From positions 50,206,073 through 50,270,072 of the forward strand of contig CM067360.1 in the NCBI GenBank assembly GCA_034401795.1: 64,000 nucleotides of DNA. Reading direction: 5' to 3'. The stretch is from Chaetoderma sp. LZ-2023a. Its lineage: Eukaryota > Mollusca > Caudofoveata > Chaetodermatida > Chaetodermatidae. Each line of letters starts with the position of its first letter. Position 1 is the stretch's first letter. The position numbers and the translations under genes were made by a program. Shown one piece after another: positions 8,521 to 59,924 of this stretch. The notes below the pieces were generated by a model. That model saw only the letters and a program-made list of their open reading frames with translations. It did no database searches and was not told the DNA's origin.

Positions 8521-8629
8521 TCGGTTGTCTAAGTGATTTTTCAGCATCAGGGTTGTCCCCGCATAGCTCTCTGCGACGTCTGAATGCCCAGATCTCCTCT
8601 TTCATGTCTCCTTTTCCGGACAGTTAGGC

Positions 8630-9785
8630 TTTGGTGGTGGACACCCTGTCTCAGTCCTGGACACGAATGTTTGCCTATGTATTCCCACTAACAATTTTGA
8701 TTCCGTTGGTCCTGAAGAAGGTCAGGGACCAGATCTGCGAAAATCTTCTGGTAGCCCATTTTTGGCCAAAGAGAATCTTGTTCATAGACCTTCTTGATCT
8801 TCTGGTAGACTTTCCTTGTCTTCTTCCAGTATCCCCAGATCTTCTCTCTCAAGTAAGGGGCATGTGTCTAGATCCAAATCCAGAAATCTTCAGTTTGTGC
8901 GATTGGAGAATATCGAGTATCTGGTCCCTGAGATCAAGTTTTCTTCAAGATCTCAGGAAATCCTTGACTGCTAGGAGGGAGTTGACACGTCAAGTTTACA
9001 AGGGTCAACTTAAAATCTTTGGAGAATGGTGTTCAAACCATGGTGTCTTGCCCGATTTTTTTCTATTTCCCAGGTGTTAGATTTTTTATCGATTCTTTAC
9101 AACTATCAGCTAACGGCGTTAGGGTTTCAGATTTTCCATGGCTTCTTCCCTTCCGTGTTTTTTTAATGCCGTTATCAAGGATTCAAAGATTCTCAATGGT
9201 TTTATTAGAGGTTTGGGCAATATTCGTCCTCCAGTGGCTAAGCCTTTGCCTTCCTGGAATTTGGCCTTGATTATTCTAGTATTGGCAGGTCTCCATTTTG
9301 AACCAATTGGATCTATCAGTCTCAAAATGTTGACTCTTAAGGCTGTTTTTTTCCTGATGCCACCACTTCAGCTAGAAGATGCAAAATTCATGCTCTTTTC
9401 ACAGAAAAAGACAGATTTATCGAATCTGGGGATGGTCTAGTTTTATATCCCAGAAGGGATTTGTTATCGAAGACCTAATCTAACCGTTACCCAGCCAATT
9501 TTAAAAGATCTGATTTTTTGCACTTATGGGTCCCGTACATGGAGGAGGTAGCTAGACCAGTTTTAAGGCGTTGGTTGCCAGATGGATCTGTGAGCACATT
9601 AAATTATGCTATGAGATTGCCTCCCCTGTTGAGATCAATTTAGCCCATGTCAAGGTGCACGACTCGTGATATGGCTACCTCCGTTGCTCTTTTCTTCGGC
9701 TCATCATTGGACGACATCATGTAAGTTGCAGGTTGGAAATCTGAATCGACTTTTTCTCTTTCTATTTAAAGGATCAGAGCTCAGC
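8630..9785 (+). pseudogene. DIRS element 1 tyrosine recombinase, frameshifted
   Basis: Begins with the linker phrase DTLSQSWTRMFAYVFP and IPLVLKKVRDQ (8637-8740). Then comes the core-binding region SLTARRELTRQVYKGQLKIF (about 8960-9020). The catalytic domain follows: EPIGSISLKMLTLKAVFFL; then, after a shift near 9355, TTSARRCKIHALF with the first catalytic Arg; the H-x-x-R box at about 9657-9668, itself broken by a small deletion; ATSVALFFGSSLDDIM (about 9671-9721); and FYLKDQSSA with the nucleophile Tyr at 9763-9765. Known: DIRS recombinases integrate the circular cDNA. A TAA follows DDIM at 9722, a position shared with the other DIRS family in this window. At least four frame breaks are present. 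Confidence 0.8.
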
Positions 9786-16963: not shown

Positions 16964-17119
16964 GTTTCAATTTCAATTTCTTACTCAGATGACCAGCGTA
17001 TACAATTTGTGTTGCTAGTAGCAGCACATACCTAAGCTTTTGCAGGCCAGGTTAGAACCAGTCTCCTGACATTAAACTCCTGAATTTCAGTGTTTACCAA
17101 GCAAAACTCTCAACAAATT

Positions 17120-17720
17120 GTAGTTCGGATTGACCGGTCGGGTACCGGCCGTACCAGCTAAGCTGGGTACGCGCCGCCCGTCCTGGATTCGTGCCCTGAA
17201 CATGCCCCCCTGGGTAGAGCCATAAGCATATATGGGCCTATGGGAGAGATCGCGTTGTAAAAACGACTAAGTTCGTTAAAGCGCATAGTGCGCATGCGCA
17301 CGCTTGGATGCTATTTTTGATGGAGCACGTAGATAACGACCAAGATGGGATGAAGCTTTTAGTGTAACGAGATGGTACCCTGTAATCTTTTTTGATTACC
17401 TGTTCCCGTTGATTCTGGCATTAATCAAGACCAGAATTCGACGGGCTTTTTAAATCTGTAAACCATTTCAAAATCAGTTATGGAAAACCCTTCTTGATTA
17501 TCTTCAAAATATTGCCGTGACGTCATAACCACGTGGATGCAGAACTTCTAGAATGTTCTAGAACATTCGACTGCGCTATTATTAGCTACGCGCTGATTGG
17601 CTGTTGCTCGAACGATGATTGGTTGGAGCCTGCGCCTGTGATGTCACGAGGAGTATAAAAGGAGACGCGATCCAGAGATCGAGAGCATCCTGGCCGAACA
17701 GGTTGGACATATACTAGCTG
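17120..17720 (+). promoter_or_regulatory. CpG-rich stress-type promoter island
   Basis: Seen: a GC- and CpG-richer island inside an AT-rich intron. In order it has the perfect NRF-1 palindrome TGCGCATGCGCA (17289-17300), CRE TGACGTCA (17518-17525), E-box CACGTG (17530-17535), a five-unit heat shock element (17546-17568), inverted CCAAT boxes (ATTGG at 17596-17600 and 17618-17622), and TATAAAA (17654-17660). Transcription would start near 17685 on the + strand. Inferred: a heat-inducible RNA polymerase II promoter. No long reading frame follows: the best is a 25-codon frame from an ATG near 17960. It may drive a non-coding RNA, or be the U3 of a solo LTR or another element. I could not find matching LTR ends. 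Confidence 0.6.
17546..17568 (+). promoter_or_regulatory. Perfect five-unit heat shock element
   Basis: Five alternating pentamer cores, TTC-GAA-TTC-GAA-TTC, each separated by exactly two bases and with no mismatch. Three units suffice to bind an HSF trimer. It sits about 86 bases upstream of the TATA box, a normal distance. Confidence 0.85.
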
Positions 17721-17819
17721 CGATCATCAGATATTACGCATATAACTTCGCTTTCTGCCGGTTTTTCTCCCGTAGCTAGCAGTTGCCAACCCTCCACACT
17801 AAAACAATTTTGTAACTCC

Positions 17820-18350
17820 CTACTTGCGGGAGCAATTTGGAACTTTCTAATTATCGTTCATGAGTATCAATATCTACTTCGGAACACGAACTTGCGGTGA
17901 GGCCTTTACAGCCTGAATATGTGATTCTACAGATGTGGAGGCAGGATGTTCTTTGATGGATGACTCGCTGGATCTGCCAACCGTGCCTAAAAGTGGTATT
18001 TCAACTATCACTGCACTAATGTTGTGTAGGTTCTAACTTTCGACCGCAGCAAGTAAACTCTGCCCGGTGTGTCTTCAGAGCTGGCTGACGTACCCAGCAC
18101 CATTAAGCTTTGTTTTGTATCTTCGTTTGCATCTAACAGCCCCCCCGCTTGTGATCGGGTTGTTGACAATTCCATCCATGCCATCGATGTAGAGGAACTT
18201 TCTTCACAGCAGTAATGCTATTGTATCTCTTGCTGACTACTCGTTAGACATTCCATTAGGCTTACAGTGCTGAGCGATGTACTCCCGTCATGAGTAATCT
18301 TGCGGGAATCCTGTTGCGGAAATCAACTTGCGGGAACCAACCTGCGGGAA
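17820..18350 (+). repeat. Scattered TTGCGGGAA motifs after the promoter
   Basis: CTTGCGGGAGC lies near 17823. At about 18299-18350 four close copies follow: CTTGCGGGAATC, GTTGCGGAAATC, CTTGCGGGAACC and CCTGCGGGAAC. Each ends in a GGGAA-type core. Significance unknown. Confidence 0.5.
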
Positions 18351-18702
18351 CTTTCCAGCTTCCAGAGAATGCATCAACTCGCGTCACCTGAAGGATGACG
18401 TATCAATTTCAGTAACACGATAGCCTAACTTAGAATGGCTACCGAGTATTCACGTAACTATACTTCACATTTTAATTATTTCACTAAATGTACTTTTCTA
18501 ATTATATTGTATCCGTAAGAATGGTCCCGATGACTAAAAGGTACTGTAACGGTCTTAGGACCGCTAGTTATAATTTCTGTATATGTTTATAGTTATTCTC
18601 ATTTTCTGTAAGGTGTTTTCACTAACCGCACCATAGTAGGTTCGTTAACCTGTACTAAGATATATAATTCTGATCATTTGATACTGTATTAATTGTTCTG
18701 GT

Positions 18703-18706
<4 letters not shown>

Positions 18707-18794
<88 letters not shown>
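18707..18794. repeat. (AT)n microsatellite
   Basis: About 85 bases of AT with a single G interruption near 18763. Self-complementary and likely to form a cruciform. The minus-strand Ile-Tyr frame over it is an artefact. Confidence 0.95.
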
Positions 18795-18797
<3 letters not shown>

Positions 18798-18799
18798 CA

Positions 18800-20090
18800 G
18801 TAGCCATCAGTTCATATGTTTTGTTTATTTGTAGAAAATATAGGACTGCAGTGCACGTAGGAAACACTATACAGCAACACTTATATATACTGCACTTCCT
18901 CCCGCCACCAACAATTTTTCACTGAGGTCGCTGTCCATGCTCTAACTTTGTTTAGCCCGGCATGCTACCGACTAAACCGTTTCTATTCAGCTCGCTAGGA
19001 TAGGTTTAATATGATTAGAGACACTTTCTTCGTTGAGAAATCTGTAGTATACTCTTCTTTTCCGGCAGTGTGATAATCTAGCCCCGCACTCCGGTAGGAC
19101 TCATAACTCCAAGATTTTGTCTCTCTTCATACTCCACTCAGCCTTGTGGCTTCTTAATTGTTTGGATGTCCCTATCCGCGCCATGGGCTGATCCGGGAAA
19201 CTGTTGGGGTTTCCGAGCGGTGATGGCCAGGGTGTGGTATCACACACAGTCCCTCTGTATCTTCGAATACTTAGTAGTTAGCACCTTTGCCAATGTAGAA
19301 AAGCACTGCGAAAACATATAATAATTATTATTTTATTTGCTAAACCATGCTCCCGCACCGCAGTGCAAAACTGGGCAACTTGTATATAAATCTAACGACA
19401 GGTTAAACGGTTAGTTCCATAGGACCCGGTGATGGGCGAGATGCATATCCCCACCGAATTCCATAAGAATGTCTGGGCATGATATTTAGATCTGCCACGC
19501 CCTTACGGGAAAGACATTTACGGTGGGTATTCGTCTCTCTTACCACCACCATAACGATAGGACAATTGTCTAATAATGCTCTCGTGAAAAGTAACCTGTG
19601 TCCTGTAACGTTTTATGTTGTTACGGAGCGAGATGTTCGGATTCTTATCCAGTTCAGAGATCTTACCAAGTAACATGTATGAGCGCTGTCTTCAGTATTG
19701 ATGTCTTAGGGCATCTGTTCCTCCCCCATGCTCTGAAAAGCTCTGCATGTATAGATTGTATTGGGCTCATTGGTAGTTTACTTCATCACCCTTGCACTGA
19801 TAAGCTGGGTCAGCAATTTATTGCCAGCATATGACCCAAATCACTCTACCTGCTGCTCTGCATCTAAAATGGCAGCTAGTTCATGTCTATCAAGCATGTG
19901 CTAAAACTTAATTTACTCTAAAACACTTCAAATCTCACAAAACACTTAAAGCTTTTGACTTTAATTAACAACTTTCACAACTTGTTACCACTATCTTATT
20001 ATATATCACAAATTAATAACAGAAAATGCTGATTTTTCAGATTAATAGGCATTTTGTTAACAAATAACTGATCTGGTTAAAAGCCATAAG
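18800..20090. other. No recognisable feature
   Basis: Moderate GC sequence without a long frame or a recognised repeat. It may belong with the promoter island as one larger unit. Confidence 0.3.
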
Positions 20091-20192: not shown

Positions 20193-20610
20193 AACTTGGA
20201 TATTCATGAATATCCAAGTTATGTGGAGCTTGAATAAACCAGCTTATCCCAGCTAATCCAAGCTTTTAATAGCTTGGATTATCTTGCTGGTATTGGCCAC
20301 ATAAAATTCAAGATAATTCAAGAAAATCCAAGCAAGACCTAGTTAAGGTAAAATCCAAGAAAATCCCAGATAGCTTGAACATTCAAGAAAATCCGAGCTA
20401 ACTTGAACATTCAAGAAAATCTGAGCTAACTTGAACATTCAAGAAAATCCCATCTACCTTGAACATTCAAGATAATCCAAGCTAGCTTGCCGTTATTGGG
20501 CACTTAAAATCCAAGAATGTTCCACCTAGCTTGGATTTTATTCCAGAAAGTCCCAGCTATCTAGAACTTTAAGAAAATCCCAGCTAATCCTGGCTTTTGA
20601 AATAGGTTAG
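20193..20610. repeat. CAAGCTAGCTTG-type short repeat array, block 1
   Basis: Starts with a perfect 28-bp palindrome (20193-20220). It continues with units of about 28 bp containing TTCAAGAAAATCC and AGCTAACTTGAACA, clearest at 20370-20490. The unit is itself partly palindromic (CAAGCTAGCTTG). Confidence 0.75.
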
Positions 20611-26960: not shown

Positions 26961-26998
26961 AGTAGTTACTTAATGGCAAATATTCCCCTTGGACAGAA

Positions 26999-27328
26999 CG
27001 ACCCAGACGTATATATACTGGTCTGGCGTTTTGTTAGCTTACTAAAATACTTACCACTCAATTCACTGTTTGCTATAAGTCACCTGACTTAGATATCTCA
27101 GAAAATTTTAACCTATTCATTCCCATGGTGTGGGTTCCCTTGAAACAAGGTTAGCAGAGATACATCCCTCCATTGGGTAGTCTTGATAGTATCTCTTTAA
27201 CTCTAAAGCAGTCATTGCTCTAGGGAACCGGTTCCTCTATTCCTATAGAGAACATATAAACGAGTCTGTGAGCATGCGCACTTATGCTACTATGCATGCG
27301 ACCGAGTCCAAGCCGTCATTAATTAATT
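26999..27328 (+). repeat. Low-coordinate terminal repeat of DIRS copy A
   Basis: Outer end CGACCCAGACGTATATATAC. From about 27054 (CCACTCAATTCACTG) it is the inverse of the far repeat. It carries GCATGCGCAC and CTATTCCTATAGAG. Confidence 0.85.
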
Positions 27329-27384
27329 CCACAAATTTTTAATGATTTGCAATTTAACGATGCGGGGTGGCCGAGATGGGCCAC

Positions 27385-27500
27385 AGTGAATTGAGTGGTA
27401 AGTATTTTAGTAAGCTAACAAAACGCCAGACCAGTATATATACGTCTGGGTCGTTTTGTAACACAACAAAAATACTAAGCCACTCAATTCACTGTTTGCT
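27385..27500. repeat. Internal complementary region of DIRS copy A
   Basis: 27385-27452 is the reverse complement of the low-coordinate outer end, and 27451-27500 is the reverse complement of the high-coordinate outer end, joined at GTCGTTTTG. It carries the same extra base (GGGTCG) as this copy's own terminus (CGACCC). Confidence 0.9.
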
Positions 27501-27583
27501 AAAACCTAGAATTGGTCAGAGCCCAAATACTAGGTGGGTTGGTAAATTGCAAATCAGGAATGAAAGGTTAATCACCAAAAATA

Positions 27584-29850
27584 CTAAAACCAACTAAATC
27601 GCTGAAGTGCTGAAATAGCACGAACAAACAAATGTTCGAAATAAAATACAATAATATAATGATAATTAGAAAATCTCAGCAAAGAGAATTTAAAAACAGC
27701 CGTGAGATGGTGAAGAAGACGGCTGACTAAAGAATCTAGGCAATTGAGCCTAGGTTTGAGTGGCGAAACGAGAAATGTCAGATTGTGAATTGAATCTGAT
27801 CTTTCAGATAAAAATAATGTAGAATCTGACATTTATACTGCAACTTACATAATGTCGTCCACTGATAGATCTGCATAGAATGCGAAGGAGAAGGCCATAC
27901 CACGAACATCGTGTGCCTTAACACAAACTGAGTGTCTCCTGGAGATACATTCTAGTGTCAATTAATGGTGTCTGTAATCCAGTTGATGAGATGCGCGCTT
28001 ACTAAACAAATTCGCATAAGTAATCTGAACGGTAGATCTGCATAGAATGCGAAGGAGAAGGCCATACCACGAACATCGTGTGCCTTAACACTTACTGAGT
28101 GTCTCCTGGAGATACATTCTAGTGTCGATTAATGGTGTCTGTAATCCAGTTGATGAGATGCGCGCTTACTAAACAAATTCGCATAAGTAATCTGAACGGT
28201 AGATCTGCATAGAATGCGAAGGAGAAGGCCATACCACGAACATCGTGTGCCTTAACACTTACTGAGTGTCTCCTGGAGATACATTCTAGTGTCGATTAAT
28301 GGTGTCTGTAATCCAGTTGATGAGATGCGCGCTTACTAAACAAATTCGCATAAGTAATCTGAACGGTAGATCTGCATAGAATGCGAAAGAGAAGGCCATA
28401 CCACGAACATCGTGTGCCTTAACGCTTACTGAGTGTCTCCTGGAGATACATTCTAGTGTCGATTAATGGTGTCTGTAATCCAGTTGATGAGATGCGCGCT
28501 TACTAAACAAATTTGCATAAGTAACCTGAACGGTGTTTCAAAAAGATCTTTTAAATTGGCATAGTTTTCGGAAAGGATTGAAAACAATTAATTAGGTTTT
28601 ATATATATAAGATCACTTCACGGGCAAAGAATGAGGCCAGATCTCCTACCACCTAGAAAAGATCATTCACAAAAAGAATATGAATATCAAAATGCCATCT
28701 AACAAACGCGGCCGCTAGTACAAAAAGAATGATTTCAGAGTTATACAATTAAACAGATGGACCCAAGAATGAATTAATAGAGGAATTTATTATAGGTATT
28801 TGCCTTTGTGCTATACCCAAAAATACCAGTACCATGGATAAATAATGTAAATACTTAATAACTCTCAAACCGGCTTCTAGAAAATAAAGAAGGATAGATG
28901 CTAGTGAATACAGGGATTTAAATCATCAAAAAATATCCCATGAATCTATGACTTGATGATGGGATGCAGAATCGGGCGAGATAATGTGCTGTTCTAACAA
29001 CCATTTGAAAACCTTAAATATACTCTGGTAAATTCTCCTGTAACAGATAGTTTGAATTGATTAAGAATACTAAAGTTCAGACAAAAAATCAATTTCTGAA
29101 AAACAGGTCTCTTGGAAAATACCATATATACATATTGAAGATTTGTGGAATGATGAACTGAAAGCTGCTGTTAAACGAGATAGAAAATCAGCAAAATTGG
29201 TAAGACGCTTTGGATTTCCACAAAGAGGACTACGAGATCCACTGAATAACTCATTGGGCCAAGCAGGAGTGATTAAAGGGATAATACATTCTGCTGACAA
29301 AAGTTCTTAAAGACAATTGTACTAGAAACCGCTGACAAAAGTTCTTAAATACAATTGCCACTAGAAAGTTAAATTGAAGACAATTAAACAAAATCTGAAG
29401 TTTATGACTGGGCCAGAGCATCTACCGCCAGAGCCTAGCCTGGAGGAAGAATATGAACATCAAATCTGGACACTATACTGAGTAGAAACTTAATGGGATG
29501 TAATAAATGAGCTACAAGGAAAATCATTCTACCTGGAATGTGAGCTGCTGAAAGTTTTCCTGACATCTCCACCGCAGGAGGAAGACCAAGACTCCAGACA
29601 AAATATGATAACCTCAACTGCCCTGCTTGTTGATGAAGGACACTACTATAGAAATGACTGCATGAGCAGATAGGTGCTTGTGAAAGAGACAATATCTCTT
29701 CATTCTCCAATATTCCAGAGTATTGAAGAGGAATACTAGAGTATTAGTTCCTGTTCTAGTTCCTGAAAAGGAAGAGAGTAGTAAGACTACTTTATCTGAT
29801 TCCATAGACACAAGAACGAGAGGAAATTCTATAGCGATCCCCTCCCCCAA
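27584..29850 (-). pseudogene. RNase H and tyrosine recombinase remnants of DIRS copy A
   Basis: Reading the minus strand from high to low coordinates: VVSFINKQGS (about 29614-29640), the RNase H substrate-handling box; LSAAHIPGRMIFLVAHLLHP (about 29500-29570), like the HIPGxxNxxADxLSRP end of RNase H; CIIPLITPAWPNELF (about 29240-29295), the linker typical before the recombinase; then the H-x-x-R boxes (27902-27913 and three more); and FYLKDQIQFT (about 27790-27820), which holds the catalytic Tyr. Frames change repeatedly and the longest open piece is 91 codons. In each unit the catalytic box is intact as a local frame, but a stop or shift separates it from WITDTINRH. Non-functional. Confidence 0.7.
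27867..28534 (-). repeat. Four 167-bp tandem units over the recombinase catalytic box (copy A)
   Basis: Units start at 27867, 28034, 28201 and 28368. Each contains, on the minus strand, the sequence for AHDVRGMAFSFAFYADL, the H-x-x-R box of DIRS recombinases, preceded by HLINWITDTINRH in another frame. 167 is not a multiple of three, so successive units shift frame. Copy B has two units. Confidence 0.9.
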
Positions 29851-32450
29851 ACACGTAACAAGACATCAAACTGAACCTGCAGATGGATAAACTGGTGAAT
29901 TGGTACCGATGACACCCAGCGAATGAAAATGCAGTGTATGCGGTCGTGGTGAGGGACAAAATTCTGAATTACCAGACTTGACCTTCGTACACAAAACTGA
30001 CTCCATTCGGCCCAAATTTTAACACAATTAAGCAACCTTCCAAGCCAGAGGAATCCCAGACTGGCTATGATGTAATTAAAAGAACCCAGATCCAGTTAGG
30101 ATCAATTCTGTATATATAGAAATATCAGAAAACACTGTCCCTTATCCTTGACGAGACCAGTGATGACTAGGCAAAATGACTCCATGTCCATATTATTCCT
30201 TTCATCGATGAACTCCATTTCTGAGACAACATAGCAGGAAAAGAGTTGAATATAAAACGATTGACTAAGTAATTTTTGTCTCAAACAGTATCAAAGCAGC
30301 CATGGGTTCCAGACAAAATAATTCCAAAATATACAACAGAATTAGTATTAAATCATGAAGTGTAAATTTTTTGGAAGTTGTCAGAAAAGGATAAATATAT
30401 GAGTTGAAGATAAGAGCCGAGACCCTATAAAAGATGATCTGCCAGCACCTCATAATCCTTAAAGTCTGGATTCTGCCATTCCTCCACTGTATCCTACTTG
30501 AAAAGAGCAGAAAATTATTGATCAGGAACAGAAGCAGGACTAATGTCAAAGGAGACCAACATGGTTTGATAGAAAAAAGGGGGATTCAATGACTACATTG
30601 ATTGTACCTTATATGTAGGAAATCTGCTACCTAAGACATGCATGAGGCTAGCTATACCCATCCCACCCCTGATAGAGTAGAGATTATATAGAAGCGCTTA
30701 AGCATGACAGCTAGGACCAGAATAAACCTGCAGAATCTTATTTTACAAATCTAATTTTAAAACAAAGCTAGTATGATATGAGCCCAATTGTTAATATCTT
30801 TATCAGATGATTAAACAGGAAAGAAGTCCATCAAACCTGTGACCAGATCAATGAAACTACACAGAAGGGTGAAAGGAAAAAACCCTATTCCACAATCCAT
30901 GCGAAGGCAATAATCCAATCATCTTGGTTAGGCCCCCTTGAGGAATTTATTTAATAATGCCTGGGAAAGTTAGAATTTAGAAGAATAAAAAATAGGCTTG
31001 AATAGATAAGGCTGAGAAGACATCTCCATATGACAATAATAGAAATAGACATATCCCTAGACAAATAAAAAGATCAAAATTTCTACTGAACTCGAGAAAG
31101 GAGCGGTGTAAATCTTGATAAGACAAAAAAGATTTTGTTATTGTGACAAGCTTACATTCACCCATAGATATGCTTCATCATGGCGAGGGATCCTACTGAT
31201 AGAAAAGAAAGACTGAAAAACTATGTTAAAAATAAATCAGGCCAGATATGATACTAAAAGATAGCAAACCACGCTTCACAATTAAAATAATAAAGTCTGA
31301 CGCACTTATTTGCAGATTGATATTAGGAGAATCGAAAGATGATTGATTCCAATTTTTTGAGAGAACAGGTCGAAAGATGGAGGCTGATAGGAAGAGAGTA
31401 ATACATGAGAAGATTCAGGAGCAAAATGAAATCTAGTGAAATCAAAACGACAAAAGCACTGCTAGGATCATAAGAAAAAATTAAATCATTCCTAGAAGAT
31501 AAATGCGAAGAGTTGGGTGTACACAAGGTTTCGAAGGATGAGGATAATTGGATGGTTCAGCCATTGCACTAAGAGCAACTAATAAAGAATTAAAGAATTA
31601 AAATTAAGAGCCCCTGAAATAGGGCATTTAAACTGTCAAGTGATTTAGAAACAAACAATACCAGCAAAACAACAGAAGTGATTTGATTTGGCATACCTAA
31701 ACCAGAAGTTTAATTATAATCAGTTGCTATGCCATAAAAATTGAGAGTTATAATCTAGGTAATAATACTGAGCACAGGACAATTAGGCCTTATGGTCATC
31801 TCTTCTTCATTTATCTCCATGCCTGTGCCGTCACTTCTAGTCATGGGTTGCGTGTACGGTGTAGTCATACATTGGCTTGACTATGCCAAAGCCAACCTAA
31901 ACCATTTTCGAATGTTTTAAGAGATGGTGTGGAAACAACATGTTAAGACCAACATTTCACAGTTTACACACCCCTTAGAGAGAAGATTTTTCTAACTAGG
32001 TTAGTTCTCCCCCTCTTCTGGTAGACTTTCAGATGATTTCCACGAGTAATAGTCCATTTGCAAGCAGAATGTTATATTTGACTATAACAATAATCGATTG
32101 AGAGCCGATAGAATGATCCATCATAGCCTGGGTACGTGCTCTATATATCCAATTTCACCCAAGTTAAGTACCCGCAGAAAGAATTTCCAAAATGATGAGA
32201 GATTAGATTATACATTAAGTAGGGAAAAACCCCATCTTAGGGCTAATAAAAGTGGCTGATAGTCAAGAACTTTCCTGATCCAAAGGCTATGCTTGCTACT
32301 AAAACACTGAGATCAATACACATCTCTGATATAGTAAAACTTGGTCATCAAGGTTTGTAGCGTTTACTATCAAAATATCAACCATTTATGATTTAACTCT
32401 CGAAGTTATTAGTCATAAGTTGCAACTGAAATAAGTTGAATCTGAATGAG
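29851..32450 (-). pseudogene. Decayed pol/ORF region of DIRS copy A
   Basis: Several minus-strand pieces of 60-94 codons (for example 30265-30549, 30977-31165 and 31323-31526), rich in Leu, Ile and Phe, are preserved almost unchanged in copy B. By gene order this is where the reverse transcriptase should lie, but I cannot point to its catalytic motif. Confidence 0.4.
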
Positions 32451-33540
32451 TACCAGCAAATATGGGAGTGGCGTATTTACTTAAAAATCCATAAATAGGT
32501 CGCACATTTATGCTCAATTTACATGTTCTAAAAATTTTGCGCGCACTATATACAAGGATAAAACTTATTTTCCTCTGAATTTTTAAACATCTTAACGTCT
32601 GAAGATACCACGAAAACCCCCTTCACAAATCTTGTCACCTCGCGACTATGCTTAATGTGTACCTCAAAACATCATTCGCAGAAGTGAAATTATTAAATTG
32701 AGCAGCCTAAATATTGCGTATCCTTTTATAAAGATTGTTTTTTCCATCAAAATTAATCCTAACTTGACATAAATGTAGTCTTTATAATATATAAATCAGA
32801 ATCACGTGATAATCACATGATATATAAATCACGTGATATTATCTGACCAGATCAGGTTAAAGCAAATTTTAATGAAGTAGCTTAAGCGAGTACTCGGATA
32901 TAGATATCCTGGAATCGGAAATTCGGCAATGAGATCTACGCTTCTCGTCAGCGCCTCCAAACGGAGATTTACTTTGCCACTGTCCGGCTCGCTAACAATA
33001 GACGCGGGCTACCCAGTTTAATTATCGGCCGTTCATGCAATTTTTCTAGAACATCGCATTACGTTTTAGATCATTTTATGTTGGTCACTCACATTACAAT
33101 ATAACCATGCAGTAATATATATGATAAATTTTATCGCTAGACTTAGAAATCAAGTGAACGCAAGTTTCTCGCTAGATTTACAAATCAAGTGAACCTGATA
33201 ATCTGGCACAGGCTTAATAGCCTATCTAACAAAAGAGGGTTATACGATTACGAGGATTCAAATCAGTATCGTAATTTTGAACATCCTGGCATTCCGAGAT
33301 CGTCCAACATTTGCCAATTTACGACAAACTAACGAGGATATCCCATAGCAACGCAATGTTTAAATTTTTCATGAAACTAAGGGCATAAAAAATACTTGCG
33401 TCGAATAACCCCGCCAGGTATTAGAAAACATAAATCTCAAGTAATTTTTATAAGATATTAAATAAATGGTAAAAAGGTTTCACGGCCCATTGCTAGTAAT
33501 GTTAAATTAGCCTGCAAAAACGCCGCCAATTGAAAGCGAA
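32450..33540. repeat. Interior module of DIRS family 2 shared with other repeats
   Basis: 32500-32600 matches 42760-42860 (GCTCAATTTACATGTTCTAA, GGATAAAACTT, TTTCCTCTGAATTTT). 32650-33000 matches, in inverse order and orientation, the interior of the 5520-6623 element (GAAGTGAAATTATT, AAATATTGCGTATCCTTT, GCGAGTACTCGGATATAGAT). It includes repeated AATCACGTGAT near 32810-32840. Confidence 0.65.
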
Positions 33541-33759
33541 CACCGAATCGCGAATTAATACTGATGGTCTCGTCTTTATTGTAATACGACTGACATGACT
33601 GATCATCATGAAGTAATTGCGAGTTTCATGTTAGTTGGTTAGCAACGGTCCTTAGAAGGACCACTCGCTTTTCTTCAGGGGATGATCGTGGAGTATCCTT
33701 GTGGTGTTCATCCGGTCCACCACGCCTGTTTGCACCACTGTCACATTCTTAATAGATCC

Positions 33760-33990
33760 AATAACTTCCCAACCGGTATATGACATAGTTATGTAGGATA
33801 CCTTATGTAGGATTCGATCCAAACCGGTATGTAGTATACCTTATGTAGGAAAGAATGACGCTCGGAAATACGTACCTAGTCAAAACTCTTAATTGATCCA
33901 CTAACTTCCCAACCGGTATGTTACATATGTTATGTAGGATACCTTTCGTAGGAGATGTTCCAAACCGGTATATAGTATACCTTTCGTAGG
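33760..33990 (-). pseudogene. Repeat-bearing ORF1 start region of DIRS copy A
   Basis: Two 130-bp units (33771 and 33901, CTTCCCAACCGGTAT), each containing two half-units AACCGGTAT...CCTTATGTAGG or CTTTCGTAGG. In copy B the same region is an open 86-codon frame. Here a one-base difference (GAACGAGCC against GAACGGAGCC) breaks that frame. Confidence 0.55.
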
Positions 33991-34265
33991 AACGAGCCTC
34001 GTGGCTAAAATAGGATCAGAGTTATTGACTCCACCTGGCTTGTAATGTGAAGCTGGCGCCATTTTCTTTCAACTTGGTCACAACGAACTTTCTGTTCATA
34101 TTCACGTAAATTATAAACATTTTACATAAGTACTATAACTTATTCAACAAAGACTGCTTGTACTGTGGTAGTCATGAAAAATCAAATGTGGATGTAGCTC
34201 CACAAGATTATGGAATGAATAGGATTTGTTGAGATAAAAGTTAGGTGTTTCCCGTAATACAGAAA

Positions 34266-34566
34266 ATTAATTAATGCCGGCTTGGACTCGGTCGCATGCA
34301 TAGTAGCATAAGTGCGCATGCTCACAGACTCGTTTATATGTTCTCTATAGGAATAGAGGAACCGGTTCCCTAGAGCAATGACTGCTTTAGAGTTAAAGAG
34401 ATACTATCAAGACTACCCAATGGAGGGATGTATCTCTGCTAACCTTGTTTCAAGGGAACCCACACCATGGGAATGAATAGGTTAAAATTTTCTGCGATAT
34501 CTAAGTCAGGTGACTTATAGCAAACAGTGAAATGAGTGGCTTAGTATTTTTGTTGTGTTACAAAAC
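34266..34566 (-). repeat. High-coordinate terminal repeat of DIRS copy A
   Basis: Inverse of 27054-27328, ending GTTGTGTTACAAAAC. As the 5' end of the element it is the likely promoter. It carries a CATGCTCACAG/GTGCGCATG stretch. Confidence 0.85.
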
Positions 34567-35160
34567 AAGAGAGTATTTACACCATCTTGTTCTCTGTGAC
34601 CAAACTATCCTGGACAAGTGCTTGTGAAATTCACATGTCAATGAGACTTCCTAAGCTTTAATGTGCATTACCTCCTAAATTGTTGTCAAATTATAATAAA
34701 ATATTTACACCGGTCTAGAAAATAAACTGCTCTTTGTTTTGATAATAGGCTGCCTGAAAGCTATTGCTGCTTATGACAGCAGGGACTTTCAGTTAAATTG
34801 TTTTCAAAATATTCAGTGGCTTTTAATGGTAGCTGACTGAATGTAAGACTCTGGGATTTTGGCAGAGGAGTCAATAATTATCAGCCCTGTGGTCCTGTAA
34901 GCTAACCCTCTATATGTGGTCAATCTGACTCCTTTTGCATGGAAAGGGCCTGAGAACTATAGTGAGAGATATATAATGACCAGTCTATAGTTGGCAGTTC
35001 AATGCTCGCTTAAACTTGTCAAGTTGACAAGGAAACGTAGGAATAACAGAGGGACAGATTTTATGTGCAATATTTTGTGATTCTGCAAAACGTAACTTGT
35101 TGAGGAGAGCAAATGTCAAAATATACCACAAAAAAATTATCCTTGTATTTCTCTTGTTGT
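34567..35160. other. Mostly unrecognised; a hairpin near 34750-34815
   Basis: AAAGCTATTGCTGCTTATGAC and the following CAGCAGGGACTTTCAGTTAA resemble the core of the GTTGCTG/CAGCAAC hairpins. Nothing else recognised. Confidence 0.3.
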
Positions 35161-43539: not shown

Positions 43540-45672
43540 TGCTTGCAGGTGTCTGCAATTCTGGACTGAAAAGTGCGATGAATTCACACGGGCCTTTACG
43601 CCAGAAGACCTTGACTGATAAACGTGCTGAATGGTTTTCTGTTGATCTCTTGTCTTAGCGCAAACTCCTCAGAAAGCTTGAACATCAATGGATGGACTCA
43701 AAACTTGAGGTATACCGACAAATGTTCACGACTGCTCGAAAGGATTACAACAGGAAACTAGAAGATACAAAGGCATCTTTTCATCCTGGCAGAATTGAAG
43801 CAGCTGACACTAAAGAACTTTTCAGCATAGTAGATAGTAATTCTGGATCTAAGAAAGTTTCGGCCACTATTCTTCTGAATGTAGAAATTTCAAAATTACC
43901 ACATATTTTTGTGGCCTTTTTCAGTGAGAAAATTGTCAAAATTTGTGCTAAATTAGTGAATGAGCTACCATATGTTGAGGAGTTGGCTTCGCCTCAATGT
44001 GAGCACTTGGATTTTGATGCTATGTCATTGGATGAGGTCATATCTATTGTACGCAAAATGCCTTCAAAGTCTTATGAATTGGACCCCATGCCTACTCAGT
44101 TTGTGATGGACTGCCTCGATGTCTTGGCACCTGTGCTGTTACGCATCGTGAATGCATCGTTTGAGTTTGAGATTTTCCCAGCCAATGGCAAAGCTGCCAT
44201 TGTCCATCCCCTCATTAAGAAACTAGGTATATATCCCAATATCCTTATCAATTATTGTCCAGTCTCAAACTGTTGTTTCTTGGACAAGTTCCTTGAGAAG
44301 TGGGCTTTTTTCGTCTGCATCCATATTTTTCCTCTAATAGTCTTTATGGCAAATTTCAGTCTGCTTGTCGAGAGGGACATAGCACCGAGACAGCACTCTT
44401 TCGAGTCCTGAATGATGTTATGCTCGCTCTCGATAGGCAGCATGATGTCATACTTGTGTTACTTGACCTTTCTGCGGCCTTCTCATAAACAGATTGCGCT
44501 GTTGTTTCGGCGTCTGTGGACTAGCCTATGATTGAGTCCTTTCTTCCGGGTAGGATCCAGAGAGTGTCTTTGCAGTCGGTGGTGTCGGAGGACCATGTCC
44601 TAGAATTTGGAGTTCCCCAGGGCTCGGTCTTAGGCCCAGTGCTGTTTGCCCTATACATGACTCTGATTGAGGACCTCATCATCCGCCACAGTTTAAATGC
44701 TGTGATCTCTGCTGACGACTCCCAACTGTACATCGCCTGTGACTCTCGAACAGACGCTGCCACAGTCAGCCGTATTGAGGCCTGTGTTGATGAGACGTGA
44801 TTGGATGCAAGCAAATTTGCTCGCATTGAATGATGGTAAGACAGAAGTAGTCTGGTTCTCGTCACGCAGCAAGGAAGCGGGTCTGTGATGTGCGTGTTGG
44901 TGAGGTGTATGTTTCTCCATCAGCATCCGTTCGTGACTTGGGGATGATGATGGACTCGGCTGGACTCATGGATGAACAAATCAAGAAAGTATGTAACGGG
45001 GTGTCTCATTCACTATGGTGTATAGGAAAAATCTGTCATCTTTTGGATCAGGTCAGCACTGAGAAATTAGTGCATGGTTTTGTTACATCGAAGCTAGATT
45101 ACCGTAATAGCTTGTTCTATGGTCTTCCGGACTACAAGATCAAATAAAAATCAGCATATACAGAATTCTGCTGCTAGACTGGTCACCAGACGTAGGCTAG
45201 ATCATCATGCGGATATGACTCCGGTACTCAGAGCTTCACTGGTTCCCAGTCGAACAGCGGATTCTTTTCAAAATTGTGTCCATAATTTTCAAGGTTATAC
45301 GCCACGGTGAGTCAGAGCCTAGCTACCTCACTCATATCATTAAAGTTCAAAAACCTTCATACCGCACTAGGAGTAGCATTGAGATGAAGCTGACCCCCTT
45401 CTCTTATAAATCCCATGGCAACAAAACCTCGAAACAGTACGGTGACCGCGCCATGAGTGTAGCGGCACCGAAACTGTGGAACACTCTTACTTGAGTTGAG
45501 ATCTTTTACTAAATTTATCAATTTTAAATCAAACCTAAAAACATTTATTTTTAAACAACATTTTAGTTAATGTGTATGTATGTATGCATTTATATATTAT
45601 ATGATATGCCTGTTTTTAGTGTACATGTACAGACTGTTGAGATTTGCGTGTAATGGTCTTTAAAAATATAAA

Positions 45673-50853: not shown

Positions 50854-51331
50854 CTCAGATGAGAACTTAGAATGAATTTACATGAAGGATGAATGAAACT
50901 AAACTTTCTAATAGTAGGCTATTGATATACCTTAAATCTTATCTGTGAGACGACTCTCTAGGCGTGGCTGAACTGGGATAAGGAATATGACTATTACTAC
51001 GTATCACATAGTTACATGTATTTAAGTCTAAAATCCATATTTTAACATTCAGCAAAGTTTAGAAGTAAACAAGCCACATCACAATGAGACAGCTTGTATC
51101 AGCTGTAAAGTATAGATCCACAGGATGTAATTGTGTGATGGACTGCAGGGAGACCTAGGCAAGCCTCTTCACATGAGTTTGTTCTGTGGCACTATAAACA
51201 TTAAATAACAATTAACCATTTCAGCTTTATGGCTGGAATGTCACATGTTAAAGCAATATTGCATTAAGCAGTGTTTGAAGTTTAAGGATGAAAGCGTACA
51301 GCCACATAGTCAAGAGTGACTATGTATAAAA

Positions 51332-51660
51332 CGACCAGACGTATATATACTGGTCTGGCGTTTTGTTAGCTTACTAAAATACTTACCACTCAATTCACTG
51401 TTTGCTAAAAGTCACCTGACTTAGATATCTCAGAAAATTTTAACCTATTCATTCCCATGGTGTAGGTTCCCTTGAAACAAGTTTAGCAGAGATACATCCC
51501 TCCATTGGGTAGTCTTGATAGTATCTCTTTAACTCTAAAGCAGTCATTGCTCTAGGGAACCGGTTCCTCTATTCCTATAGAGAACATATAAACGAGTCTG
51601 TGAGAATGCGCACTTATGCTACTATGCATGCGACCGAGTCCAAGCCGTCATTAATTAATT
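51332..51660 (+). repeat. Low-coordinate terminal repeat of DIRS copy B
   Basis: Outer end CGACCAGACGTATATATAC, one C fewer than copy A. The remainder is nearly identical to 26999-27328. Confidence 0.85.
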
Positions 51661-51716
51661 CCACAAATTTTTAATGATTTGCAATTTAACGATGCGGGGT
51701 GGCTGAGGTGGGCCCC

Positions 51717-51831
51717 AGTGAATTGAGTGGTAAGTATTTTAGTAAGCTAACAAAACGCCAGACCAGTATATATACGTCTGGTCGTTTTGTAACACAACAA
51801 AAATACTAAGCCACTCAATTCACTGTTTGCT
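51717..51831. repeat. Internal complementary region of DIRS copy B
   Basis: Reverse complements of both outer ends joined at GGTCGTTTTG. It has one G fewer than the copy A region, exactly as this copy's terminus has one C fewer. Confidence 0.9.
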
Positions 51832-51914
51832 AAAACACAGAATTGGTCAGAGCCCAAATACTAGGTGGGTTGGTAAATTGCAAATCAGGAATGAAAGGTT
51901 AATCACCAAAAATA

Positions 51915-53870
51915 CTAAAACCAACTAAATCGCTGAAGTGCTGAAATAGCACGAACAAACAAATGTTCGAAATAAAATACAATAATATAATGATAATTAT
52001 AAAATCTCAGCAAAGAGAATTTAAAAGCAGCCGTGAGATGGTGAAGAAGACGGCTGACTAAAGAATCTAGGCAATTGAGCCTAGGTTTGAGTGGCGAAAC
52101 GAGAAATGTCAGATTGTGAATTGAATCTGATCTTTCAGATAAAATTAATGTAGAATCTGACATTTATACTGCAACTTACATAATGTCGTCCACTGATAGA
52201 TCTGCATAGAATGCGAAGGAGAAGGCCATACCACGAACATCGTGTGCCTTAACACAAACTGAGTGTCTCCTGGAGATACATTCTAGTGTCAATTAATGGT
52301 GTCTGTAATCCAGTTGATGAGATGCGCGCTTACTAAACAAATTCGCATAAGTAATCTGAACGGTAGATCTGCATAGAATGCGAAGGAGAAGGCCATACCA
52401 CGAACATCGTGTGCCTTAACACTTACTGAGTGTCTCCTGGAGGTACATTCTAGTGTCGATTAATGGTGTCTGTAATCCAGTTGATGAGATGCGCGCTTAC
52501 TAAACAAATTTGCATAAGTAACCTGAACGGTGTTTCAAAAATATATTTTAAATTGGGCATAGTTTTCGGAAAGGATTGAAAACAATTAATTAGGTTTTAT
52601 ATATATATATAAGATCTCTTCAAGGGCAAAGAATGAGGCCAGCTCTCCTACCACCTAGAAAAGATCATTCCCAAAAAGAATATGAATATCAAAATGCCAT
52701 CTAACAAACGCGGCCGCGAATGATTTCAGAGTTATACAATTAAACAGATGGACCCAAGAATGAATTAATAGAGGAATTTATTATAGGTATTTGCCTTTGT
52801 GCTATACCCTAAAAATACCGGTACCATGGATAAATGATGTAAATACTTAATAACTCTCAAACCGGCTTCTAGAAAACAAAGAAGGATAGATGCTAGTGAA
52901 AACGATAACACCACCCCAGCATACAGGGATTTAAATCATCAAAAAATATGCCATGAATCTATGACTTGATGATGGGATGCAGAATCGGGCGAGATAATGT
53001 GCTGTTCTACAACCATTTGAAAACCTTAAATATACTCTGGTAAATTCTCCTGTAACAGATAGTTTGAATTGATTAAGAATACTAAAGTTCAGACAAAAAA
53101 TCAATTTCTGAAAAACAGGTCTCTTGGAAAATACCATATATACATATTGAAGATTTGTGGAATGATGAACTGAAAGCTGCTGTTAAACGAGATAGAAAAT
53201 CAGCAAAATTGGTAAGACGCTTTGGATTTCCACAAAGAGGACTACGAGATCCACTGAATAACTCTCATTGGGCCAAGCAGGAATGATTAAAGGGATAATA
53301 CATTCTGCTGACAAAAGTTCTTAAAGACAATTGTACTAGAAACCGCTGACAAAAGTTTTTAAATACAATTGGCACTAGAAAGTTAAATTGAAGATAATTT
53401 AAAAAAAAAAATGTGAAGTCTATGACTGGGCCAGAGCATCTACCGCCAGAGCCTAGCCTGGAGGAAGAATATGAACATCAAATCTGGACACTATACTGAG
53501 TAGAAACTTAATGGGATGTAATAAATGAGCTACAAGGAAAATCATTCTACCTGGAATGTGAGCTGCTGAAAGTTTTGCTGACATCTCCACCGCAGGAGGA
53601 AGACCAAGACTCCAGACAAAATATGATAACCTCAACTGCCCTGCTTGTTGATGAAGGTCACTACTATAGAAATGACTGCATGAGCAGATAGGTGCTTGTG
53701 AAAGAGACAATATCTCTTCATTCTCCAATATTCCTGAGTATTGAAGAGGAATACTAGAGTATTAGTTCCTGTTCTAGTTCCTGAAAAGGAAGAGAGTAGT
53801 AAGACTACTTTATCTGATTCCATAGACACAAGAACGAGATCCCCTCCCCCAAACACGTAAGAACAAGACA
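51915..53870 (-). pseudogene. RNase H and tyrosine recombinase remnants of DIRS copy B
   Basis: Carries the same pieces as copy A in the same order on the minus strand: VTFINKQGS (about 53632-53660), LSAAHIPGRMIFLVAHLLHP, the AHDVRGMAFSFAFYADL box in each 167-bp unit, and FYLKD near 52125-52145. Here a stop codon (TAA) lies just before FYLKD where copy A has TAT. The linker frame seen in copy A (PLITPAWPNELF) is broken by two extra bases near 53265 (AACTCTCATTGG). Non-functional. Confidence 0.7.
52198..52531 (-). repeat. Two 167-bp tandem units over the recombinase box (copy B)
   Basis: Units start at 52198 and 52365. The first carries the ACACAAACTGAG variant and the last the AAATTTGCATAAGTAACC variant, the same first and last variants as in copy A. 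The extra units of A are therefore interior duplications. Confidence 0.9.
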
Positions 53871-56450
53871 TCAAACTGGACCTGCAGATGGATTAACTGG
53901 TGAATTGGTACCGATGACACCCAACGAATGAAAATGCAGTGTATGCAGTCGTGGTGAGGGACAAAATTCTGAATTACCAGACTTGACCTTCGTACACAAA
54001 ACTGACTCCATTCGGCCCAAATTTTAACACAATTAAGCAACCTTCCAAGCCAGAGGAATCCCAGACTGGCTATGATGTAATTAAAAGAACCCAGATCCAG
54101 TTAGGACAAATTCTGTATATATAGAAATATCAGAAAACACTGTCCCTTATCCTTGACTAGACCAGTGATGACTAGGCAAAATGACTCCATGTCCATATTA
54201 TTCCTTTCATCGATGAACTCCATTTCTGAGACAACATAGTAGGAAAAGAGTTGAATATAAAACGATTGACTAAGTAATTTTTGTCTCAAACAGTATCAAA
54301 GCAGCCATGGGTTCCAGACAAAATAATTCCAAAATATACAACAGAATTAGTATTAAATCATGAAGTGTAAATTTTTTGGAAGTTGTCAGAAAAGGATAAA
54401 TATATGAGTTGAAGATAAGAGCCGAGACCCTATAAAAGATGATCTGCCAGCACCTCATAATCCTTAAAGTCTGGATTCTGCCATTCCTCCACTGTATCCT
54501 ACTTGAAAAGAGCAGAAAATTATTGATCAGGAACAGAAGCAGGACTAATGTCAAAGGAGACCAACATGGTTTGATAGAAAAAAGGGGGATTCAATGACTA
54601 CATTGATTGTACCTTATATGTAGGAAATCTGCTACCTAAGACATGCATGAGGCTAGCTATACCCATCCCACTCCTGATAGAGTAGAGATTATATAGAAGC
54701 GCTTAAGCATGACAGCTAGGACCAGAATAAACCTGCAGAATCTTATTTTACAAATCTAATTTTAAAACCAAGCTAGTATGATATGAGCCCAATTGTTAAT
54801 ATCTTTATCAGATGATTAAACAGGAAAGAAGTCCATCAAACCTGTGACCAGATCAATGATGGATAAGGACAAAGGACTGAAACTACACAGAAGGGTGAAA
54901 GGAAAAAACCATATTCCACAATCCATGCAAAGGCAATAATCCAATCATCTTGGTTAGGCCCCCTTGAGGAATTTATTTAATAATGCCTGGGAAATTTAGA
55001 ATTTAGAAGAATAAAAAATAGGCTTGAATAGATAAGGCTGAGAAGACCTCTCCATATGACAATAATAGAAATAGATATATCCCTAGACAAATAAAAAGAT
55101 CAAAATTTCTACTGAACTCGAGAAAGGAGCGGTGTAAATCTTGATAAGACAACAAAGATTTTGTTATTGTGACAAGCTTACATTCACCCATAGATATGCT
55201 TCATCATGGCGAGGGATCCTACTGACAGAAAAGAAAGACTGAAAAACTATGTTAAAAATAAATCAGGCCAGATATGATACTAAAAGATAGCAAACCACTA
55301 TTCACAATTAAAATAATAAAGTCTGACGCACTTATTTGCAGATTGATATTAGTCGAAAGATGGAGGCTGATAGTTAGAGTGTAATACATGAGAAGATTCA
55401 GGAGCAAAACGAAATCTAGTGAAATCAAAACGACAAAAGCACTGCTAGGATCATAAGAAAAAATTAAATTATTCCTAGAAGATAAATGCGAAGAGTTGGG
55501 TGTACACAAGGTTTCGAAGGATGAGGATAATTGGATGGTTCAGCCATTGCACTAAGAGCAACTAATAAAGAATTAAAGAATCCAAAATAAGAGCCCCTGA
55601 AATAGGGCATTTAAACTGTCAAGTGATTTAGAAACAAACAATACCAGCAAAACACCAGAAGTGATTTGATTTGGCATACCTAAACCAGAAGTTTAATTAT
55701 AATCAGTTGCTATGCCATAAAAATTGAGTTATAATCTAGGTAATAATACTGAGCACAGGACAATTAGGCCTCATGGTCATCTCTTCTTCATTTATCTCCA
55801 TGCCTGTGCCGTCACTTCTAGTCATGGGTTGCGTGTACGGTGTAGTCATACATTGGCTTGACTATGCCAAAGCCTACCTAAACCATTTTCGAATGTTTTA
55901 AGAGATGGTGTGGAAACAACATGTTCAGACCAACATTTCACAGTTTACACACCCCTTAGAGAGAAAATTTTTCTAACTAGGTTAGTTCTCCCCCTCTTCT
56001 AGACTTTCAGATGATTTCCACGAGTAATAGTCCATTTGCAAGCAGAATGTTATATTTGACTATAACAATTAATCGATTGAGAGCCGATAGAATGATCCCT
56101 CATAGCCTGGGTACGTGCTCTATATATCCAATTTCACCCAAGTTAAGTACCCACAGAAAGAATTTACAAAATGATGAGAGATTAGATTATACATTAAGTA
56201 GGGAAAAAACCCATCTTAGGGCTAATAAAAGTGGCTGATAGTCAAGAACTTTCCTGATCCAAAGGCTATGCTTGCTACTAAAACACTGAGATCAACACAC
56301 ATCTCTGATATAGTAAAACTTGGTCATCAAAGTTTGTAGCGTTTACTATCAAAATATCAACCATTTAACTCTCGAAGTTATTAGTCATAAGTTGCAACTG
56401 AAATAAGTTGAATCTGAATGAGTACCAGCAAATATGGGAGTGGCGTATTT
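53871..56450 (-). pseudogene. Decayed pol/ORF region of DIRS copy B
   Basis: Collinear with 29851-32450 of copy A. The 94-codon frame at 54270-54554 is identical in translation to 30265-30549. Shared breaks show that decay preceded the separation of the two copies. Confidence 0.45.
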
Positions 56451-57550
56451 ACTTAAAAATCCATAAATAGGTCGCACATTTATGCTCAATTTACATGTTC
56501 TAAAAAATTTGCGCGCACTATATACAAGGATAAAACTTATTTTCCTCTGAATTTTTAAACATCTTAACGTCTGAAGATACCACGAAAAAACCCTTCACAA
56601 ATCTTGTCACCTCGCGGCTATGCTTAATGTATACCTGAAAACATCATTAGCAGAAGTGAAATTATTAAATTGAGCAGCCTAAATATTGCGTATCCTTTAA
56701 TAAAGATTGTTTTTTCCATCAAAATTAATCCTAACCTGACATAAATGTCGTCTTTATAATATATAAATCAGAATCACGTGATAATCACATGATATATAAA
56801 TCACGTGATATTATCTGACCCGATTAGGTTAAAGCAAATTTTAATGAAGTAGGTTAAGCGAGTACTCGGATATAGATATCCTGGAATCGGAAATTCGGCA
56901 ATGAGATCTACGCTTCTCGTCAGCGCCTCCAAACGGAGATTTACTTTGCCACTGTACGGCTCGTTAACAATAGACGCTGGCTACCCAGTTTAATTATCGG
57001 CCGTTCATGCAATTTTTCTAGAACATCGCATTACGTTTTAGATCATTTTAGGTTCACATTACAATATAACCAGTAATATATATAATAAGTTTTAACGCTA
57101 GATTTAGAAATCAAGTGAACGCAAGTTTCTCCCTAGATTTACAAATCAAGTGAACCTGATAATCTGGCACAGGCTTAATAGCCTCTAACAAAAGCGGGTT
57201 ATGTGATTACGAGGATTCAATTCAGTATCGTAATTTTGAACATCCGGGCATTCCGAGATCGTCCAACATTTGCCAATTTACGACACACTAAAGAGGATAT
57301 CCCATAGCAACGCAATGTTTACATTTTTCATGAAACTACGGCCATAAAAAATACTTGCGTCGACTAACCCCGCCAGGTATTAGAAAACATAAAATCTCGA
57401 GTAATTTTTATAAGATATTAAATAAAAGGTAAAAAGGTTTCATGGCCCATTGCTAGTAATGTTAAATTAGCCTGCAAAAACGCCGCCAATTGAAAGCGAA
57501 CACCGAATCGCGAATTAATACGATGGTCTCGTCTTTATTGTAATACGACT
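56450..57550. repeat. Interior module of copy B shared with other repeats
   Basis: Equivalent of 32450-33540, with the same GCTCAATTTACATGTTCTAA and GCGAGTACTCGGATATAGAT phrases and AATCACGTGAT pair. Confidence 0.6.
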
Positions 57551-57765
57551 GACATGACTGACTGATCATCATGAAGTAATTGCGAGTTTCATGTTAGTTG
57601 GTTAGTAACGGTCCTTAGAAGGACCACTCGCTTTTCTTCAGGGGATGATCGTGGTGTATCCTTGTGGTGTTCATCCGGTCCACCACGCCTGTTTGCACCA
57701 CTGTCACATTCTTAATAGATCCAATAACTTCCCAACCGGTATATTACATAGTTATGTAGGATACC

Positions 57766-58026
57766 TTATGTAGGATTCGATCCAAACCGGTATGTAGTAT
57801 ACCTTATGTAGGAAAGAATGACGCTCGGAAATACGTACCTAGTCAAAACTCTTAATTGATCCGCTAACTTCCCAACCGGTATGTTACATATGTTATGTAG
57901 GATACCTTTCGTAGGAGATGTTCCAAACCGGTATATAGTATACCTTTCGTAGGAACGGAGCCTCGTGGCTAAAATAGGATCAGAGTTATTGACTTCACCT
58001 GGCTTGTAATGTGAAGCTGGCGCCAT
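57766..58026 (-). CDS. DIRS family 2 ORF1 N-terminal frame (86 codons, copy B)
   Basis: Open minus-strand frame just inside the 5' terminal repeat, where DIRS ORF1 (Gag-like) begins. The start ATG has a favourable context (AAAATGGCG). The protein starts MAPASHYKPGEV and contains a repeated motif, RYTIYRFGTSPT and RYTTYRFGSNPT, encoded by the 130-bp DNA repeat. No Cys cluster and no known domain recognised. The frame ends at a stop within the repeat, so it is truncated relative to a full ORF1. In copy A the frame is broken by one base. It may simply be a chance-preserved piece of a dead element. Confidence 0.4.
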   Translation of the reverse strand: MAPASHYKPGEVNNSDPILATRLRSYERYTIYRFGTSPTKGILHNICNIPVGKLADQLRVLTRYVFPSVILSYIRYTTYRFGSNPT

Positions 58027-58229
58027 TTTCTTTCAACTTGGTCACAACGAACTTTCTGCTCATATTCACGTAAATTATAACCATTTTACATAAGTACTAT
58101 GACTTATTCAACAAAGACCACTTGTACTGTGGTATTCATGAAAAGCAAATGTGGATGTAGCTCCACAAGATTATGGAATGAATAGGATTTGTTGAGATAA
58201 AAGTTAGGTGTTTCCCGTAATACAGAAAA

Positions 58230-59873: not shown

Positions 59874-59924
59874 AGTGTATATATTTTATGTGGAGCAGGG
59901 TATCCTCTAAATGGCCTGCATGGA

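Follow-up and report, generated by a model that had tools for sequence, protein, structure and literature searches.

What is a complete heat-shock-type promoter doing in a stretch of molluscan DNA where no gene appears to follow it? The locus lies in a 64,000-nucleotide segment of the Chaetoderma sp. LZ-2023a genome (the window), in which an initial annotation described an orphan stress promoter within a CpG island. We found all of the elements it had listed, an NRF-1 site, a CRE, an E-box, five heat-shock pentamers, two CCAAT boxes and a TATA box, and they stand in the order claimed (Table 1). The five-pentamer heat-shock element (HSE) and the NRF-1 palindrome each occur once in the 64-kb window and in none of 100 dinucleotide shuffles. 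The motif series is real and far above chance. We take the motifs to be sites for CREB/ATF, USF/Myc, NF-Y and NRF-1. Judging from the spacing of the TATA box, transcription would start at about 17684-17687.

Table 1. Coordinates of the LTR fragment, its promoter motifs and associated features in the window
Feature	Position	Strand	Evidence
3'-truncated LTR, Ty3/gypsy-type, starting TGTAGTTCGG	17119..19720	+	Alignment to 20 genomic copies
NRF-1-type palindrome TGCGCATGCGCA	17289..17300		Motif scan
CRE TGACGTCA	17518..17525		Motif scan
E-box CACGTG	17530..17535		Motif scan
Heat-shock element TTCTAGAATGTTCTAGAACATTC, five contiguous pentamers in register	17546..17568		Shuffle test
Inverted CCAAT box 1 (ATTGG)	17596..17600	-	Motif scan and copy alignment
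Inverted CCAAT box 2 (ATTGG)	17618..17622	-	Motif scan and copy alignment
Second CRE-like site, reading TGATGTCA in the window copy	17639..17646		Copy alignment
TATA box TATAAAA	17654..17660	+	Motif scan and copy alignment
Candidate splice donor GTGAGG, 3' of the predicted start	17897..17902	+	Splice-site score
14-bp tandem array CTTGCGGGAA..., ~3.7 copies	18299..18350	+	Tandem-repeat search
First AATAAA 3' of the promoter, beyond the LTR fragment	20233..20238	+	Sequence scan

One candidate owner of such a promoter is a nested coding gene. Stop-to-stop ORFs were scanned against Pfam in partly overlapping sets of 118, 101 and 55; the scan left out several ORFs, including those of a second inverted-repeat copy. 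Neither a heat-shock domain nor any other convincing cellular one turned up in the scanned ORFs. These ORFs gave RVT_1 in two members and otherwise weak matches (E 0.0077 or worse), and on this basis a nested coding gene was rejected. The earlier statement that no gene follows holds for the stop-to-stop ORFs scanned against Pfam, which are a part of the total. Rfam and tRNA scans of the window returned nothing. The initial annotation had also placed the promoter in an intron from which transcripts could read into FOCAD. No FOCAD family match was present among the window ORFs scanned against Pfam, and the PF12530 profile was silent in the whole source genome and likewise in 14 of 14 control genomes, so its silence carries no information on FOCAD.

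The promoter is not an orphan; its motifs belong to a repeated LTR. The 601-bp promoter stretch is a repeat in the source genome (2.44 Gb), in which the window occupies C2:50206073-50270072 and where a first look gave 6281 candidates. Forty were scored. Apart from the window, scoring gave one piece of 102 bp and 39 other long matches, 87-92% identical. We aligned to the window 20 genomic copies with their flanks, chosen among those most like the window promoter. These copies have a common 5' boundary, which corresponds to window position 17119. At the left end, 16 of the 20 read TGTAG at the aligned base, two have TGTAG in a shifted position, one reads CGTAG and one is different; the right ends read CTACA in 14 of 16. 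The complete LTR measures ~3.58 kb in copy L015, and the family LTR is ~3.6 kb long with the ends TGTAG...CTACA.

The flanks of the copies are those of a retrotransposon. A polypurine tract lies 5' of the LTR in four of the 20 copies (L024, L025, L027 and L028), whose left flanks have a shared stretch with the G-rich tract at its end; these four are therefore 3' LTRs. An AGTGG start resembling a primer-binding site (PBS) lies 3' of the LTR in four of 16 copies (L014, L016, L018 and L022). One element, L022/L031, combines a polypurine tract and a PBS-like start with LTRs at both ends and GAAC on either side, and its two LTRs diverge by K2P 0.066, or 0.039 outside CpG context. L018 and L029 were rejected as one element, with an LTR K2P of 0.149 against 0.163 between different copies. 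Among nine copies with neither a PBS nor a polypurine flank, an exact 4-bp target duplication surrounds four (L009, L011, L019 and L020) and is absent from the other five apparent solo copies (L010, L015, L017, L021 and L023). The initial annotation had proposed asking whether further copies exist and whether these have TG...CA termini flanked by short target duplications. For the family the answer is positive, both in the end counts and in the GAAC at L022/L031.

The internal region points to the class of the element. The four copies with a PBS-like start share ~3 kb of internal DNA, 83-87% identical in the main alignments. Five stop-to-stop pieces of it, extending only as far as the reverse transcriptase (RT), were scanned against Pfam. 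The scan detected a zf-CCHC zinc knuckle (L016), RVT_1 (L014) and, below the curated cut-off, a gag-asp_proteas match in a piece of L016; two of the five pieces matched no Pfam family. The best solved-structure matches of the RT piece were 4ol8 (RT/RNase H, E 1e-30), which we take to be a Ty3 enzyme, and Ty3 Gag-Pol 7q5b (E 6e-30). On these sequence features the family is a Ty3/gypsy-type LTR retrotransposon. It resembles the Ty3/gypsy elements (Metaviridae) in its TG...CA LTRs, 4-bp target duplications, PBS-like start and polypurine tract, as well as in its gag zinc knuckle, weak protease match and an RT close to Ty3. It differs from them in its long LTR of ~3.6 kb with what would be a very long R region. 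Two exact patterns scanned against viral contigs gave 0 matches each. We also observed a second LTR subfamily (L029 4906-8528 and L031 1-1469), in which the HSE contains ACGTTC (spacer CG) and is preceded by AAAGC; the L031 copy of this LTR sits in inverted orientation within the L022/L031 element.

Does the promoter belong to the family or to the window copy alone? We compared 25 copies, the window included, that are the most similar to the window promoter, a choice that biases motif retention upwards. Motifs were counted anywhere in a 662-bp promoter stretch in all 25, or at their place in 21 aligned copies. The five-unit HSE is intact in 20 of the 25 similarity-chosen copies and lost in five, and 24 keep at least three units; such retention of a heat-shock element across copies in an LTR promoter is one of the marks of an ONSEN-like LTR. 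The CRE TGACGTCA is exact at the first-CRE place in 15/21 and occurs anywhere in 22/25; the corresponding figures are 16/21 and 20/25 for CACGTG and 20/21 and 23/25 for TATAAA. The NRF-1 core GCGCATGCGC is found within the promoter stretch of 18/25 copies and two inverted CCAAT boxes in 20/25. The series five-unit HSE, then ATTGG, then TATAAA is preserved in 16/25. From the retention of the five-unit array in these copies, the promoter is a property of the family.

The HSE is among the better conserved parts of the promoter. Mean agreement with the majority letter reaches 0.987 over the 15 core letters of the HSE, 0.955 in the spacers and 0.976 across the HSE, compared with 0.919 overall. Of 639 overlapping windows of HSE length, 21, counting that of the HSE itself, reach its level of conservation, and a stretch near 17417 exceeds it in the 25-copy alignment. 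Downstream, 11 of 20 copies have a candidate splice donor (GCGGTGAG or GCGGTAAG) within LTR positions 778-811, and 19 of 20 have TTGCGG or TGCGGGA within 1.8 kb of the left LTR end. A TTGCGGGAA-type motif, presumably E2F-like, recurs 3' of the predicted start in 17823-18350, with four occurrences inside the 14-bp tandem array; 19 of 20 LTR copies have it.

The window copy is shorter than its relatives. All 17 copies that reach window position 19720 run on with shared sequence; the window copy does not, and ~1.03 kb is missing from the 3' end of its LTR. The element spans 17119-19720, rather than the 17120-17720 or 17100-18650 considered earlier. Among the origins the initial annotation had entertained was an unrecognised element in the form of a solo LTR. 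The LTR promoter is borne out; "solo" is undecided, with the copy ending at 19720, ~1 kb short of the 3' end. No polypurine tract is present in its left flank, and it is therefore a solo LTR or a 5' LTR remnant and not a 3' LTR. Four 5' LTR copies were compared with the window by their right flanks, which hold partial internal regions of 3.4-5.2 kb; these flanks match it only through an LTR piece that they themselves contain. A search for TG...CA ends with duplications within the window alone yielded only 4-bp pairs at chance level, because the window copy has no 3' end. A 9-bp duplication, GTTCGGATT, at 17123 and 19635 was likewise put down to chance, the true limits being 17119 and 19720.

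Truncation has also removed a poly(A) signal. On the + strand, neither AATAAA nor ATTAAA occurs between the TATA box and 19720 in the window copy. Of 14 family copies checked, 12 have an AATAAA in the LTR, at a distance of 641-2116 bp from its 3' end, and in 11 of the 14 it falls 111-115 bp beyond the point where the window copy ends. The exceptions among the 14 are L016, which has one elsewhere, and L021 and L022, which have none. Since the missing 3' part holds the family AATAAA, transcripts of the window copy should run into the flank.

Base composition follows the same limits. Two-state segmentation of the window delimits a CpG-rich block at 17126-19638, close to the limits of the LTR fragment. 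Across 17118-17700 GC is 0.475, and the CpG observed/expected (o/e) ratio reaches 1.19, compared with 0.39 and 0.29 for the two flanks. A CpG island is defined by a GC of at least 0.5 and a CpG o/e of at least 0.6. The promoter lies above this ratio but below this GC value, and the earlier label of CpG island does not apply in the strict sense. The first segmentation setting gave six other CpG-rich blocks in the window. Three sit in two long inverted-repeat elements and one (44369-45469) overlaps weak reverse-transcriptase matches; the remaining two match neither.

Our main reading, to which we assign a probability of about 0.85, is that 17119-19720 derives from an abundant Ty3/gypsy-type retrotransposon, as an LTR truncated at its 3' end, and that the motif cluster is the U3 promoter of this LTR, most likely a stress-responsive one. 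The sequence comparisons establish the identity of the LTR, the conservation of the promoter among the compared copies, the truncation and the AATAAA/ATTAAA gap. Heat induction of the LTR is what its motifs would predict. Under heat or other proteotoxic stress, HSF trimers would bind the five-pentamer array, helped at the LTR promoter by CREB/ATF, USF/Myc-type factors, NF-Y and NRF-1, and Pol II would initiate ~30 bp 3' of the TATA box, near 17685. A complete element could thereby produce its genomic RNA in time with stress, the strategy of plant ONSEN. The window copy, with no LTR poly(A) signal, may instead give read-through RNA into the downstream flank.

Heat-responsive transposons are known from other organisms. 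In Arabidopsis, ONSEN/COPIA78 carries a heat response element in its LTR, and its transcription under heat stress needs heat shock factors (PMC3907296). The Chaetoderma element shares with it the layout of an LTR retrotransposon carrying a heat response element in the LTR. ONSEN, however, is a plant Copia element, whereas the Chaetoderma element is Ty3/gypsy-type, combines five contiguous pentamers with a CRE, an E-box, NRF-1, CCAAT and TATA sites, and is predicted to be heat-induced. An animal parallel is Drosophila copia, a heat-responsive LTR retrotransposon whose promoter contains heat-shock consensus sequences. According to the same source, copia lacks at least three further nGAAn copies required for high-affinity HSF binding (PMC3907296), unlike the window-type LTR with its perfect five-unit array. 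Caenorhabditis Helitrons likewise show a transposon spreading HSF sites across an animal genome, 61.4% of C. elegans HSEs lying within Helitrons (PMC6927752). Helitrons are rolling-circle DNA transposons, whereas the Chaetoderma element is an LTR element with its own TATA promoter. Among the matches listed in the literature searched, which was covered in part, none described a five-unit HSE in the LTR of an animal Ty3/gypsy element. A literature search by the letters of the HSE gave no paper containing the full 18-base core among the matches listed.

How far is the promoter of the window copy still functional? The fragment may be an LTR whose promoter is now inert, either methylated or decayed, with motifs merely inherited from the source element, and we see about an even chance of this. 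Besides the truncation, the copy alignment reveals an 8-bp deletion near the predicted start. The position of the second CRE holds TGACGTCA in 13 of 21 aligned copies and TGATGTCA in the window copy, where this site has probably decayed. The copy stands at K2P 0.083 from L015 and 0.101 from L009, the two nearest copies compared, which also counts in favour of an inert promoter. However, its core motifs are intact, and the high CpG ratio of the promoter relative to the flanks indicates that CpG decay has been limited.

We consider two other explanations very improbable. A nested, unrecognised gene for a stress-induced non-coding RNA could explain the full promoter anatomy, the good splice donor at 17897 and the lack of a coding gene among the scanned ORFs. 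However, the sequence is repeated and has precise LTR ends, and the donor is common to 11 of 20 other copies. A single-copy promoter of this kind is ruled out by copy number; the window LTR may still have been co-opted as a non-coding RNA promoter. A mobile element might equally have captured the promoter of a host hsp70-type gene, as animal hsp promoters have an arrangement similar to the motif cluster of the LTR. Yet in two host hsp70 genes (L037 and L038) the ~670 bp 5' of the start codon gave only short matches with the LTR, at chance level, the best match (E 0.01 over 20 bp) lying outside the promoter, and the stretches compared look like 5'-UTR intron and not promoter. In both genes the apparent 5'-UTR intron ends just 5' of the start codon, and the DNA upstream of the two includes mutually similar repeats. 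The retrotransposon LTR is the reading we carry forward: what appeared to be an orphan heat-shock gene promoter has a general cause, a retrotransposon with a complete heat-shock-gene-like promoter.

This retrotransposon has scattered high-grade predicted HSF sites across a large genome. The exact five-unit HSE has 5071 matches in the source genome (2526 + 2545), against 17 (11 + 6) for a backwards-pattern control and ~10 expected from the base composition of the window; a six-unit array may count twice in the total, as at C1:24094893-24094920. The AGAAC flank of the window copy precedes 2026 of the matches (1043 + 983) and none in the control. For the other 3,045, which have no AGAAC, LTR membership is not proved; two examples (L029 and L031) lie in the same LTR with an AAAGC flank. 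A listing of 100 places, which all fall within the initial 49 Mb of a single contig, includes 99 that depart from the window site at no more than two of the eight spacer letters. One Ty3/gypsy LTR family might supply nearly all of the ~5,000 perfect five-pentamer HSEs of the genome, most of them near the TATA promoter of the LTR, a tentative proposal whose odds we put somewhat below even. If it is true, thousands of transcripts initiated in LTRs, together with new HSF sites close to genes, would form part of the host heat shock response, and the family would be to an animal what ONSEN is to Arabidopsis, with an impact similar to that of the Caenorhabditis Helitrons. If the LTRs are heat-responsive, warming or stress could activate thousands of loci, possibly with new transposition, and the effect of a transposon on stress regulation would be directly measurable within one species.

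The window contains several other elements. Two copies of a 7.2-7.6 kb element (26997-34567 and 51330-58530) are 95.6-98.6% identical in two main alignments; they carry terminal inverted repeats of ~300 bp and, internally, tandem repeats of 167 bp. Two short ORFs at 44297-44797 (+) match RVT_1 weakly, short of its curated cut-off (44525-44797, E 2.7e-06; 44297-44485, E 0.022). The adjoining 250-aa ORF at 43659-44411 has no Pfam match and what we take to be a LINE-like look. The ORF at 8628-9080 (+), with no Pfam or solved-structure match, presumably resembles a DIRS-type tyrosine recombinase. A 59-bp minisatellite of ~10 units (59920-60503) carries six exact CREs (TGACGTCA), and a 28-bp minisatellite at 20356-20489 has three units with a perfect three-pentamer HSE (GAACATTCAAGAA at 20377, 20405 and 20433).
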